Shown here: positions 8,614-16,248 of the stretch, piece after piece
How the letters are laid out: each line of letters opens with the position of its first letter
How positions within the stretch are numbered: position 1 is the stretch's first letter
Origin: Streptomyces sp. Edi2
Lineage (GTDB): Bacteria > Actinomycetota > Actinomycetes > Streptomycetales > Streptomycetaceae
Length of the DNA: 64,000 nt
Direction of reading: 5' to 3'
Assembly (NCBI RefSeq): GCF_040253635.1
Contig: NZ_JBEJGX010000003.1
Span: forward strand, 930,001 to 994,000
Position numbers and translations under genes: made by a program
Notes under the pieces: model-generated
Database searches by the model: none
Told to the model about the DNA's origin: nothing
The model's input: only the letters and a program-made list of their open reading frames with translations

Positions 8614-9297
8614 TCAGGACAGACCGGGGATGCCGTCCAGATGCGGCAGATCGTGGTCCAGGCGCTCCCGCTTGGCGCGGAGGTAGCGGATGTTCTCCGC
8701 ACGGGGCGTCATCAGCAGCGGGACCTGTTCGGCGACGGCGATGCCGTACCGCAGCAGCGCCTCGCGCTTGCGCGGATTGTTCGACAGCAGCCGCACGGAC
8801 CGGACGCCGAGGTCCAGCAGCATCTCCGCGGCCACCCCGTATTCACGGGCGTCGACGGGCAGCCCGAGCGCGATGTTCGCCTCGACCGTGTCCAGCCCGC
8901 CCTCCTGCAGCTTCATCGCCTGGAGCTTGGCCAGTAGCCCGATCCCCCGGCCCTCATGGCCCTGGAGATAGACCAGAATGCCGCGCCCTTCCGCCACGAT
9001 CGCCCGCAGCGCGGCGTCCAATTGATCGCCGCATTCACAGTGGCTGGAGGAGAAGACATCACCGGTGAGGCATTCCGAATGCACCCGGGTCAGTACCGGC
9101 TCTCCCCCGACATCGCCGTGGACCAGAGCTACTTGCTCGATCCCGCTACGGCGGTCCAGATAGCCGACGGCGAGGAATTCACCATATGTGGTGGGCAGCC
9201 TGACCGTCACCACCTGTTCCACATCGGGTTTCCGGCCGAGGGCATCATCGATTGCGACACGGAGGTCGGGGCGGGCATCGTCGTCGGCGTCCATCAT
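8614..9297 (-). CDS. GTP cyclohydrolase II paralogue with Tyr-to-Met active-site change
   Basis: A 227-residue GTP cyclohydrolase II (RibA fold). Zinc ligands C76, C87 and C89 (SECLTGD, HCEC) and the catalytic block HEGRGIGLL are present. The position matching E. coli RibA Tyr105 (KIRAYALQ) is Met128 here (KLQAMKLQ). From memory, the Streptomyces coelicolor paralogue with the same substitution (SCO6655) releases the N-formylated intermediate FAPy rather than the deformylated pyrimidine. A separate deformylase would then be needed, and the next gene rightward, divergently transcribed, is a creatininase-family hydrolase of the kind that does this in archaeal riboflavin synthesis. This is therefore probably a specialised-pathway enzyme rather than the housekeeping RibA. 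Confidence 0.9.
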   Translation of the reverse strand: MMDADDDARPDLRVAIDDALGRKPDVEQVVTVRLPTTYGEFLAVGYLDRRSGIEQVALVHGDVGGEPVLTRVHSECLTGDVFSSSHCECGDQLDAALRAIVAEGRGILVYLQGHEGRGIGLLAKLQAMKLQEGGLDTVEANIALGLPVDAREYGVAAEMLLDLGVRSVRLLSNNPRKREALLRYGIAVAEQVPLLMTPRAENIRYLRAKRERLDHDLPHLDGIPGLS

Positions 9298-9371
9298 GGC
9301 GCGATCGTACCCGCGGTGGGAATGGATCGGCGGTAGTCACTCAGAACACAACAAGTATGCTGCGACAACCA

Positions 9372-9386
9372 TGACTCGGTGAGTCA
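9372..9386. promoter_or_regulatory. Inverted repeat in divergent promoter region
   Basis: TGACTC-GGT-GAGTCA, a perfect 6-bp inverted repeat with a 3-bp spacer, lies 24 bp before the creatininase-family start and 75 bp before the divergent ribA-like start. It is a candidate operator for the pathway. No regulator gene is adjacent. Confidence 0.4.
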
Positions 9387-9409
9387 GCGACGAAAGGCCG
9401 CAGCACACG

Positions 9410-10165
9410 ATGACCGCTTCGGGACACCCGACTCCGGCGCCCGGCCTGTTGCCGGCGGACACCACACAGGACGTACGGGCACGGCAGCCGACCATGGCCG
9501 TGCTGCCCATCGGCAGCTTCGAACAGCACGGCGACTTCCTGCCGTTGACCACCGATACCGTCATCGCCTGCACCATCGCCCGGGAGGTGGCCGCCGGCCG
9601 TCCCGTGCAGCTGCTGCCGCCGCTGACCGTGTCCTGTTCACACGAACACGCCGCATGGCCGGGGACGGTGAGCATTTCGGCGCGCACCCTGCATGCGGTC
9701 GTGACGGACATCGCTGATTCGCTCCGCACGTCCGGTATCCGCACGTTGATTCTCGTCAACGGGCACGGTGGAAATTACGTGCTGCGCAATGTCGTTCAGG
9801 AATCCGCGGGGCGCGGCGTGCGGATGGCGCTCTTCCCTGGATCGGCCGACTGGGACGCCGCGCGCACCCGGGCCGGGGTGCAGACGTCCGGACACACGGA
9901 TATGCATGCCGGAGAGGCCGAGACGTCCATTCTGCTGTATGCCCATCCCGAATTGGTCAAGGAAGGCTACCAATCGGCGGATTGTGTCGCCGATGACCGG
10001 AAGCAGCTACTGACGCTCGGCATGTCGGCGTATACCGAATCCGGGGTCATCGGGCGCCCTTCGCTGGCCTCCGCCCGCAAGGGACAGGAATTGCTGGCCG
10101 GCCTGGTCGAGGCATTCGAGGAATATGCCGCGCTGTTCGGCGCAGGAACGGAAGGCCATGACTGA
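9410..10165 (+). CDS. Creatininase-family amidohydrolase (possible FAPy deformylase)
   Basis: A 251-residue metal-dependent amidohydrolase. The family metal ligands are visible: E38 and H40 in SFEQHGDFLPL, D49, H119 in VNGHGGN and E169 in MHAGEAETS. Family members include creatininase, mycofactocin MftE and the archaeal FAPy deformylase ArfB. With a GTP cyclohydrolase II of the FAPy-releasing type next door and a RibD-like reductase overlapping downstream, removal of the formyl group from FAPy is the most economical role. That assignment is inferred from context; the family call is firm. It overlaps the next gene by 8 bp. Confidence 0.88.
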   Translation: MTASGHPTPAPGLLPADTTQDVRARQPTMAVLPIGSFEQHGDFLPLTTDTVIACTIAREVAAGRPVQLLPPLTVSCSHEHAAWPGTVSISARTLHAVVTDIADSLRTSGIRTLILVNGHGGNYVLRNVVQESAGRGVRMALFPGSADWDAARTRAGVQTSGHTDMHAGEAETSILLYAHPELVKEGYQSADCVADDRKQLLTLGMSAYTESGVIGRPSLASARKGQELLAGLVEAFEEYAALFGAGTEGHD

Positions 10166-14294: not shown

Positions 14295-14360
14295 GGCCGT
14301 TCCTCCGGTGTGATGTCGGTCTCAGTGAGGTGTCGTCGGGGAGCGAATTCCGGGCGGTTG

Positions 14361-15344
14361 TCAGCCGTCCGCCGGCCCGTACCGGATGCGGTGGCAGAGC
14401 GCCGGGAGATCGCCGGAGGAGAGCCGGGGCAGCACCCGGGGCAGGTCTTCGAAGGCCGACTCGCCGGTGATCAGCGCATCGAAGGCGGGGTCGGCGAGCA
14501 GGTCGAGGGCGACCGCGAGCCGGTCGGCGAAGGTACGGCGGGGCCGGGCCGGGGAGACCGTGCCCACCTGGCTGCTGCGGACGACCAGCCTGCGGGAGTG
14601 GAACGCCTCCCCCAGCGGCAGGCTGACCTGCCGGTCTCCGTACCAGCTCAGCTCGATCACGGTGCCTTCCGGCGCGAGCAGTTCGAGCGAGCGGGCCAGC
14701 CCCTGCTCGGTGGCGCTGGCGTGGACGACCAGGTCACAGTCGCCCAGCGCGTCCGCGGGCAGCGCGAAGTCCACGCCCAGTGCCCGGGCGGTGGCGGCAC
14801 GCGCGGGGTCGGCGTCGACCAACTGCACCCGGACCCCGGGGAAGCGGGCCAGGACCGCGGCGACGCTGCAGCCGACCATGCCCGCGCCGACCACCGCGAT
14901 CCGGTCGCCGACCAGCGGCGCGGCGTCCCACAGGGCGTTCACCGCGGTTTCCACGGTGCCCGCCAGCACGGCCCGGGCGGCGGGGACGGTGTCCGGTACC
15001 GGGGTGACGGCGCTCGCCGGGACGACGAAGTGCGTCTGGTGCGGATACAGGCAGAAGACCGTACGGCCCAGCAGGTCGTGCGGGCCTTTCTCGACGACGC
15101 CAACATTGAGGTAGCCGTACTTGACCGGTGCCGGGAAGTCGCCTTCCTGGAACGGCGCCCGCATCACGGCGTGCTGGCTCTCGGGGACGCCGCCACGGAA
15201 GACCAGCGTCTCCGTTCCACGGCTCACGCCGGAGCAGATCGAGCGCACCAGGACCTCACCGGCGGCGGGCTCCGGAAGGGCTACCGTCCGGATCTCGCCC
15301 TGACCTGGAGCGCTTAGCCAAAAAGCACAAGCGACGCGCGTCAT
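14361..15344 (-). CDS. Zinc-type alcohol dehydrogenase-like (MDR) oxidoreductase
   Basis: A 327-residue medium-chain dehydrogenase/reductase. A GroES-like N-terminal domain (PAAGEVLVRSICSGVSRGTETLVFRG) precedes a Rossmann domain with VVGAGMVGCSVAAVL. The common catalytic zinc Cys-His pair is not obvious; the related bacteriochlorophyllide-dehydrogenase-like MDR subgroup likewise has SRGTE here. It is the first gene of the leftward operon, with AGGAGG ahead of its ATG, and faces the CDP-alcohol phosphatidyltransferase across a 109-bp divergent promoter region. The likely role is oxidation or reduction of a sugar-like intermediate. Confidence 0.88.
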   Translation of the reverse strand: MTRVACAFWLSAPGQGEIRTVALPEPAAGEVLVRSICSGVSRGTETLVFRGGVPESQHAVMRAPFQEGDFPAPVKYGYLNVGVVEKGPHDLLGRTVFCLYPHQTHFVVPASAVTPVPDTVPAARAVLAGTVETAVNALWDAAPLVGDRIAVVGAGMVGCSVAAVLARFPGVRVQLVDADPARAATARALGVDFALPADALGDCDLVVHASATEQGLARSLELLAPEGTVIELSWYGDRQVSLPLGEAFHSRRLVVRSSQVGTVSPARPRRTFADRLAVALDLLADPAFDALITGESAFEDLPRVLPRLSSGDLPALCHRIRYGPADG

Positions 15345-15453
15345 CGGGATCCTCCTGGACGCTACGGCGATGGTTCATCGATGCTGGAGATCATCAGGAC
15401 GCCGTCACCCTACGCGGCGCCCTTCGACTCCGCTACACATCCCGGGAGGCAGG

Positions 15454-16248
15454 GTGGCCGTACAAACGCTCTACGACACAAGGCCGTTCGGACCGGACAT
15501 TACGGCCGGTATGGGTGCGCAACTGCTGGTTCTGGAAGTCCTGTGCCGGTCGGGCGGTCTGGGCACCGTGGGGTGGTTCACGGGGTGCCTCTTCGCCCTG
15601 GTCACCTGGGCGGTGCTCACCGTCGCGCTGCGCCGGACGTGGACCACGTCATTCGGGCCCGCCAACCGCGTCACACTGGCCCGCACCATTCTCGTCGGCG
15701 GGGTGACCGCGCTGGTCGCGGACTCCTTCGCCCGGCACACACCGGTCACCGTGCTGATCGTGTTCGCCGCCGTGGCGCTGGTCCTGGACGCGGTCGACGG
15801 CCAGGTGGCCCGGCGCACCGGAACGGCGACGCCGCTGGGGGCGCGCTTCGACATGGAGGTCGACGCCTTTTTGATCCTGGTGCTCTGTGTCCATGTCGCG
15901 ATCCCGCTGGGCGCCTGGGTGCTGGCCATCGGCCTCATGCGGTACGCCTTCGTCGCGGCGTCCTGGGTGCTGCCGTGGCTGCGCGGTGACCTGCCGCACA
16001 GCATGGCCCGCAAGACCGTGGCGGCGCTGCAGGGCGTCGTGCTGGTCGTGGCCGGTACGGGAATCCTGCCGCAGGCCTGGGCGGTCACCGCGGTGGCCGT
16101 GGCGCTGGGGCTTCTGGTGTGGTCCTTCGGACGCGATGTGGCGTGGTTGTGGCGGACCGGAGCGGGCGAGACGTCCGCGGCGGGCATCGACGTCCCTGTT
16201 CTCGCCGGCCTCCGCGTCACGTCCCGGCGTGCCGGCCCAGATAGATGA
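15454..16248 (+). CDS. CDP-alcohol phosphatidyltransferase family membrane protein
   Basis: About 264 residues from the GTG at 15454 (GGGAGGCAGG upstream). The full family signature D-G-x2-A-R-x8-G-x3-D-x3-D is present (D115, G116, A119, R120, G129, D133, D137), with five to six membrane helices. Such enzymes transfer a phosphoalcohol from a CDP-activated lipid or polyol to an acceptor at the membrane. Placed divergently to the pterin-like operon, it suggests that the product is joined to a lipid or polyol phosphate. It could instead make an ordinary phospholipid. Confidence 0.9.
   Translation: MAVQTLYDTRPFGPDITAGMGAQLLVLEVLCRSGGLGTVGWFTGCLFALVTWAVLTVALRRTWTTSFGPANRVTLARTILVGGVTALVADSFARHTPVTVLIVFAAVALVLDAVDGQVARRTGTATPLGARFDMEVDAFLILVLCVHVAIPLGAWVLAIGLMRYAFVAASWVLPWLRGDLPHSMARKTVAALQGVVLVVAGTGILPQAWAVTAVAVALGLLVWSFGRDVAWLWRTGAGETSAAGIDVPVLAGLRVTSRRAGPDR

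Follow-up and report, generated by a model that had tools for sequence, protein, structure and literature searches.

The stretch of DNA analysed here (the window) comprises 64,000 nt of Streptomyces sp. Edi2 (assembly GCF_040253635.1, contig NZ_JBEJGX010000003.1, positions 930,001-994,000 of the forward strand). Between window positions 8614 and 16248 it carries a block of nine genes that an initial annotation, made from the letters of the sequence, had taken for an uncharacterised biosynthetic locus linked to pyrimidines or pterins. All nine reading frames were verified; they are listed below with the short names used in the text.

8614..9297, minus strand: GCH2, a GTP cyclohydrolase II homologue, SCO6655-like, with Met128 (PF00925, 220 bits; TIGR00505, 219.1 bits, cut-off 205.85; alignment to PDB 2bz0)
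9410..10165, plus strand: CREA, a creatininase-family amidohydrolase, predicted formylaminopyrimidine deformylase (PF02633, 213 bits; in the same 74/85 loci as GCH2)
10158..11078, plus strand: RIBD, a RibD_C-type reductase (PF01872, 127 bits; best PDB match 6p8c; in 11/85 loci)
10896..11903, minus strand: FLIP, an LPG_synthase_TM flippase-like membrane protein (PF03706, 116 bits; genus 14/14 versus 0/7)
11900..12781, minus strand: MT, a class I S-adenosylmethionine (SAM) methyltransferase (PF13649, 34 bits, a weak match; alignment; model pLDDT 88.6)
12778..13899, minus strand: GT, a GT4 glycosyltransferase (PF00534, 100 bits; sequence matches to solved GT4 structures)
13896..14294, minus strand: PTPS, a PTPS-IV type T-fold protein, orthologue of SCO6650 (PF01242, 82 bits; 234 bits to PDB 3d7j; FGPAQ motif)
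14361..15344, minus strand: MDR, an MDR-type dehydrogenase, BchC-like (sub-threshold family matches; beside PTPS in 85/85 loci)
15454..16248, plus strand: CDPT, a CDP-alcohol phosphatidyltransferase family protein (PF01066, 46 bits; intact catalytic motif; genus 14/14 versus 0/7)

Pfam agreed with the families that had been assigned to the GCH II, creatininase, RibD_C, LPG_synthase_TM, GT4, PTPS and CDP-OH_P_transf proteins. The methyltransferase and the MDR dehydrogenase also fell into the families named before, the former by a weak match (34 bits) and the latter by matches below threshold: ADH_zinc_N reached 27.6 (cut-off 31.8), the best NCBIfam model was BchC (45, cut-off 291), and the generic Rossmann models DAO and 3HCDH_N were barely over their cut-offs. 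PTPS, GT, MT and FLIP are chained through 4-base overlaps, and CREA and RIBD overlap by 8 bases. The start of CDPT is uncertain; its frame is open from 15370, and codon usage, together with the alignment starts of about half of the relatives, favours a start near 15454.

Conservation of the block was followed in 97 fetched loci, 17 obtained through a family search and 80 from named genome contigs. Removal of 4 duplicates left 93 distinct loci and removal of 8 short ones left 85 with enough flanking DNA on both sides, which form the basis of the counts out of 85; the contig-derived loci are the best 80 of 559 confirmed relatives, and the counts lean to close relatives. MDR stands beside PTPS in all 85 of these loci, CDPT and MT occur in 84, GT and FLIP in 82, GCH2 and CREA in 74, and RIBD in 11. 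Six core genes (CDPT, MDR, PTPS, GT, MT and FLIP) are all present in 82/85 loci. The grouping is not due to chance: 82 of the 85 distinct relatives keep five genes in the same order on a single strand. GCH2 and CREA occupy the same 74 loci, with no locus holding one alone. GT and FLIP are likewise co-present or co-absent in all 85, as would be expected if it is the glycosylated species that is flipped.

Frequent separation of the genes in related genomes was the outcome that would have spoken against the initial annotation. For six of the nine genes (PTPS, MDR, CREA, stand-alone GCH2 at no less than 69% identity, CDPT and FLIP), a profile of 21 same-genus genomes gave the opposite picture: the same 14 genomes carry all six, and 7 carry none. 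Two genes would match 14-and-14 among 21 with a chance of 1/116,280 on the assumption, untrue here, of independent genomes. The pattern does not reflect the lineage in general, because two controls are distributed differently: CbtA, a neighbour in the window, occurs in 10/14 cluster-positive and 2/7 cluster-negative genomes, and CofH is over its cut-off in all 21 (14 cluster-positive and 7 cluster-negative). Further afield, PTPS-IV was found in 9 of 296 genomes sampled across the phylum, and MDR, at the thresholds used, in 8 of those 9 and in no other. Two loci from this sample show independent arrangements: CDPT followed by MDR-PTPS-GT-MT-FLIP-GCH2-RibD in L178, and PTPS-GT-FLIP-RibD-GCH2 on the 3.8 kb contig L179.

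The system proved wider than the initial annotation had supposed, reaching proteobacteria and haloarchaea. Plasmid scans, which cover plasmid-borne copies only, gave 27 records with this PTPS; MDR adjoins it in 23, including 21/21 outside Streptomyces (two of them from one strain). PTPS-IV copies with no adjacent MDR on large Streptomyces plasmids (L158 8001-8426, NZ_CP108294.1, NZ_CP109572.1 and NZ_CP108303.1) are possibly stray or repurposed. Among 16 annotated plasmid loci, MDR is present in 16 and the MDR-PTPS pair in 15. An MT gene stands next to PTPS or GT in 15/15 pairs (three of these MTs are annotated as hypothetical, and two of the three match Pfam methyltransferase models weakly), and GT adjoins PTPS in 11. 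A RibD family gene occurs in 8 of the 16 loci, a GTP cyclohydrolase in 6, an LPG_TM flippase in 4 and a creatininase in 1. In Peteryoungia, Agrobacterium and Rhizobium, the flippase, CDPT, GCH II, MDR, PTPS, GT, MT, RibD and a cytochrome b lie in a single block. Haloarcula halophila has consecutive CDPT-GCH III-MDR-PTPS-MT genes, its GCH III being confirmed by PF05165; Natrarchaeobaculum has GCH III-MDR with no PTPS called; and in Haloarcula sinaiiensis, a creatininase and CDPT lie no more than about 6 kb from MDR-PTPS-GT-MT. The cyclohydrolases of the two groups are unrelated, GCH II in bacteria and GCH III (PF05165) in haloarchaea. In local alignments with proteobacterial and Microbacterium counterparts, the window proteins are 47-59% (MDR), 36-59% (RIBD), 41-59% (CDPT), 33-44% (GT), 31-41% (MT) and 30-35% (FLIP) identical.

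Several additional genes accompany these distant versions. The cytochrome b gene is found in the rhizobial and Thiodictyon clusters (L143 13055-13582, L153 11011-11544, L154 11026-11565, L141 12528-13085), and the cytochrome of L143 (Peteryoungia) was confirmed as a member of the b561 family; the presence of a cytochrome hints that the product may take part in redox reactions. Near the haloarchaeal CDPT lies a large GFO/IDH/MocA oxidoreductase (L140 6691-8430, L146 4882-6852), fused in L146 to an aldo/keto reductase; extra sugar or side-chain steps are possible there. A gene of the alkaline-phosphatase/sulfatase superfamily recurs near the flippase or CDPT (L143 3472-5115, L153 2205-3791, L154 1516-3141, L178 5827-7464). 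It was recognized from annotation in three loci and from PF00884 (27 bits) in L178, and the L143 copy has no Pfam match.

The residue states of GCH2 bear on the first reactions. In the alignment, M128 falls at the position of Tyr105 in E. coli RibA (PDB 2bz0), which we take to be the catalytic Tyr. SCO6650 and SCO6655 are said to have been studied singly, and SCO6655, which carries this Met, reportedly makes a formylaminopyrimidine nucleotide (FAPy) and, owing to the Met, stops there. The actinobacterial loci contain 78 distinct copies of GCH2; the residue is Met in 76 and His in 2, and CREA stands alongside in all 78. All four proteobacterial cluster copies have Tyr, with no creatininase annotated in the stretch and no match to CREA. 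Tyr is also found in L178, where CREA gave no match in 19 kb; in L179, whose 3.8 kb contig is too short to judge CREA; and in four controls located apart from all cluster genes. This pattern of residues fits a scheme in which GCH2 and CREA would divide between them the conversion that Tyr-type GCH II achieves in a single step, and of which archaeal GCH III performs the first half. GCH2 is over the curated GCH II cut-off (TIGR00505), and CREA is below the ArfB equivalog cut-off (NF033501, 36.5 bits versus 180). A creatininase-family enzyme, BrbF, deformylates FAPy in S. meliloti, and a passage of the same paper describes this proven bacterial FAPy formamidase as itself dissimilar to ArfB (PMC9478397). 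Elsewhere in its own genome the strain has a long open frame for a Tyr-type GCH II (G000:C3:1454995), and each of the 21 genus genomes likewise contains, away from the block, another long open frame with a GCH II match.

RIBD, in which Pfam found no deaminase domain, has as its best PDB match 6p8c, a diamino-ribosylamino-pyrimidinone phosphate reductase, and is 36-59% identical to the cluster RibD proteins of proteobacteria and Microbacterium. The 3' ends of RIBD and FLIP overlap convergently by about 180 bases (window 10896-11078). In the genus relatives with RIBD (G080, G076), the match runs through a stop if it is extended to the whole length of the window protein, and the tail of the window protein may exceed that of its relatives.

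The PTPS-fold protein matches SCO6650 (PDB 3d7j) over all 132 residues with 234 bits. Its motif F21-G-P-A-Q25 is invariant in 13/13 bacterial members, the window protein included. Following work on PTPS and QueD, we take the functional residues of this family to be a Cys nucleophile, an Asp-His pair, three Zn-ligand His residues and a Glu anchoring the 2-amino-4-oxo ring. None of the 19 cluster members has the Cys or the His of the Asp-His pair, and the Asp is left in Thiodictyon only. At the position of the third Zn-ligand His, the second His of the ordinary HGH, the 13 bacterial proteins have Ala (HGA) whereas the 6 from haloarchaea keep His (HSH); the ring-anchoring Glu is retained, by alignment, in 19/19. 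Because the Glu is kept while the Cys and the Asp-His pair are lost, PTPS-IV should bind a pterin- or pyrimidine-type ring yet lacks the residues of the known reactions; an ordinary PTPS or QueD role is disfavoured by the missing catalytic residues. Another PTPS-family copy in the same genome (L159) has the full residue set.

As to the decorating and membrane enzymes, the sequence matches of GT include structures of inositol-phosphate and phosphatidylinositol-mannoside glycosyltransferases. Transport of a lipid by FLIP is inferred from its PF03706 family match (116 bits). The CDPT motif D-x2-DG-x2-AR-x8-G-x3-D-x3-D is intact, and invariant in 9/9 aligned proteins. No model predicts the acceptor, because all scores are far below the equivalog cut-offs (30.6 versus 180 for the window protein). 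Several of the nearest family models use alcohol phosphates (inositol phosphate, glycerol phosphate), and serine-using models score too.

From the gene set, its conservation, its all-or-none inheritance and the residue states, all observed directly, we lean slightly towards a reading in which the block is a conserved unit of eight genes, with RIBD as a less frequent ninth member, for a pathway from GTP to a glycosylated, lipid-linked 2-amino-4-oxo pyrimidine or pterin. We infer every reaction in it, those of RIBD, MDR/PTPS, CDPT and FLIP with the greatest reserve. GCH2, with Met at the switch position, would open GTP to FAPy, from which CREA would take off the formyl group; RIBD, where present, would reduce the ribosyl to a ribityl chain. 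MDR and PTPS-IV would then act as a pair, MDR probably oxidising a side-chain alcohol and the PTPS fold, gripping the ring by its Glu, closing or rearranging it to a dihydropterin-like polyol phosphate. After decoration by MT and the GT4 enzyme, CDPT might couple the product to CDP-diacylglycerol (CDP-archaeol in haloarchaea), by analogy with the nearby alcohol-phosphate models, and FLIP might move the lipid outward. The initial annotation is supported in part: that the product is lipid-linked, glycosylated or flipped is a prediction from gene families, and the ribityl intermediate suggested there is tentative, RIBD being found in so few loci.

A number of observations weigh against this pathway. 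GCH2 and CREA are absent near the core in 11/85 loci, L035 retains MDR and PTPS only, both Amycolatopsis loci (L083, L085) are without GT and FLIP, and L179 shows no MT on its 3.8 kb contig. RIBD, besides being confined to 11/85 loci, occurs in 3/14 cluster-positive genus genomes, and the other 11 have no orthologue elsewhere in the genome. Few independent lineages stand behind the association of Met or Tyr with the creatininase. CREA is closer to the mycofactocin MftE model (137.9, cut-off 172) than to ArfB, being below both cut-offs. Eleven cluster-negative genomes of the family carry a CREA paralogue (55-62% identical), which stands beside a different conserved protein of about 390 residues in 6/7 loci read (L164-L170; two from cluster-positive genomes). 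This partner gave a weak TPR match only, and the two genes apparently constitute a separate uncharacterised system. On plasmids, 4 of the 27 records, all from Streptomyces, have PTPS without an adjacent MDR, several MDR matches are without a PTPS match, and CDPT was found within 8-10 kb in just 8/16 annotated loci. The FGPAQ motif is absent in the 6 haloarchaeal PTPS members. The structure model of CDPT was too poor to use (pLDDT 59.8), and that of MT (pLDDT 88.6, generic class I fold) matched hundreds of class I methyltransferase structures with no hint of a substrate; that no pterin methyltransferase stands out among matches to this predicted fold is no evidence either way.

Alternatively, the product of the block might be a soluble methylated glycoside of a pteridine or pyrimidine, similar to cyanopterin or limipterin, with CDPT and FLIP serving another lipid or an accessory function. 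Pteridine glycosides are made with PTPS and a GT4 enzyme in cyanobacteria and Chlorobium; PTPS, GT4 and MT genes form an adjacent trio in 11/15 annotated plasmid pairs, while CDPT was found in 8/16 annotated plasmid loci and FLIP in 4/16. We consider this rather unlikely, as CDPT is present in 84/85 actinobacterial loci, follows the cluster in the genus (14/14 versus 0/7) and recurs near the MDR-PTPS pair in rhizobia and haloarchaea, and the PTPS lacks the catalytic residues needed in the pyruvoyl-pterin route. One might also suppose that two functions are merely neighbours: a lipid module (CDPT, MDR, PTPS, GT, MT, FLIP), whose PTPS binds some small molecule of another kind, and, apart from it, a GCH2-CREA(-RIBD) module that provides a soluble signal or precursor. 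Eight of the 11 loci without GCH2 and CREA do keep all six core genes, and three of the 11 (L042, L058, L110) have no RIBD match either. On the other hand, L178 and L179 have GCH2 and a RibD_C gene in the same gene run as PTPS-GT-FLIP in a different arrangement, an unrelated GCH III lies between CDPT and MDR in one haloarchaeon, RibA takes that place on three rhizobial plasmids, and PTPS retains the pterin-type ring anchor; such a division is in our opinion distinctly unlikely.

The similarity of GCH2, CREA and RIBD to the archaeal entry into riboflavin synthesis, and an involvement of PTPS-IV in coenzyme F420 synthesis, given as unpublished in a passage of PMC5041015, would be accounted for if the block were an extra supply module for riboflavin or F420. 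A role in F420 synthesis was rejected on the distribution of CofH, which is over its cut-off in cluster-positive (14/14) and cluster-negative (7/7) genus genomes alike and is not over it in the cluster-positive genome G011, of another genus. A riboflavin duplicate was rejected on the later enzymes, since Pfam recognized no deaminase, lumazine synthase or riboflavin synthase among the nine genes, and on the separate GCH II match outside the block in all 21 genus genomes. We know of no riboflavin or F420 step that uses a glycosyltransferase, a CDP-alcohol transferase or a flippase. Taken together, a supply module of either kind appears very improbable.

A bolder version of the lipid-linked pathway, which we regard as quite improbable, is that its product represents a new class of membrane lipids common to Bacteria and Archaea. 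A GTP-derived (dihydro)pterin would carry a trihydroxypropyl-phosphate side chain, which CDPT would use like glycerol-3-phosphate, and the lipid, then glycosylated and flipped, would act as a membrane-bound redox cofactor with cytochrome b as the likely electron partner in rhizobia and Thiodictyon. Ring closure would be due to the Cys-free (in bacteria Zn-poor) PTPS-fold protein and MDR, making a pterin route without GTP cyclohydrolase I. Should the pathway itself be correct, a large and long-studied group of bacteria holds an unnamed pathway that is shared by haloarchaea, where another enzyme takes the first step, and whose product class we know from no textbook. It would also explain a streptomycete cyclohydrolase that halts half way and a creatininase that completes the job, and would give a function to the PTPS-IV family, which databases assign to queuosine or biopterin synthesis despite its lost catalytic residues.

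A separate matter is the surroundings of the block. Its left neighbour is the CbtA cobalt-transporter gene; on the right lie a frame with an ArsR-type helix-turn-helix and then genes for a right-handed beta-helix protein, an O-methyltransferase and a ketosynthase, the last three (window 18649-23307) resembling the edge of a polyketide cluster. None of these is counted in the unit, and CbtA alone was tested, as a control. The dyad TGACTC-N3-GAGTCA between GCH2 and CREA was rejected as a regulator site, a close form of it being present in just 2/80 intergenic stretches.

The initial annotation had known of no described product for such a set, and PMC open papers yielded no product or pathway for it. 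For SCO6650, the S. coelicolor orthologue of the block PTPS with a solved structure (3d7j), and for SCO6655, the papers found there, which gave transcript tables only (PMC2853524, PMC3610822), assign no pathway or product either. Part of the gene association had nevertheless been noted already: PF00925 cyclohydrolase and RibD_C neighbours were reported in 2017 for PTPS-IV (FGPAQ, COG0720), a cluster of 561 sequences, in a passage of PMC5445326. That passage names PF00925 as GTP cyclohydrolase I/FolE2, whereas Pfam here gives GTP cyclohydrolase II, and the section on PTPS-IV neighbours makes no mention of MDR, GT, MT, CDPT, a flippase, a creatininase or the haloarchaeal GCH III.

Among the known systems, the archaeal entry into riboflavin synthesis (ArfA/GCH III, ArfB, ArfC), together with BrbF, is similar in that GTP opening is followed by deformylation, by a creatininase-family enzyme in the case of BrbF, and then by a RibD_C-type reductase. 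The block differs in opening GTP by a Met-type GCH II, in having no deaminase, lumazine synthase or riboflavin synthase, and in its six further linked genes. Cyanopterin and limipterin also involve a PTPS-family protein, a glycosyltransferase and methyl groups; the PTPS of those pathways is catalytic, unlike that of the block, and to our knowledge they employ neither a CDP-alcohol transferase nor GCH II. The synthases of phosphatidylinositol phosphate, archaetidylinositol phosphate and PGP belong to the same family as CDPT and share its full catalytic motif, from which CDPT is set apart by scores far below their cut-offs. The block fits none of the known pathways considered, although every single enzyme family in it is known.

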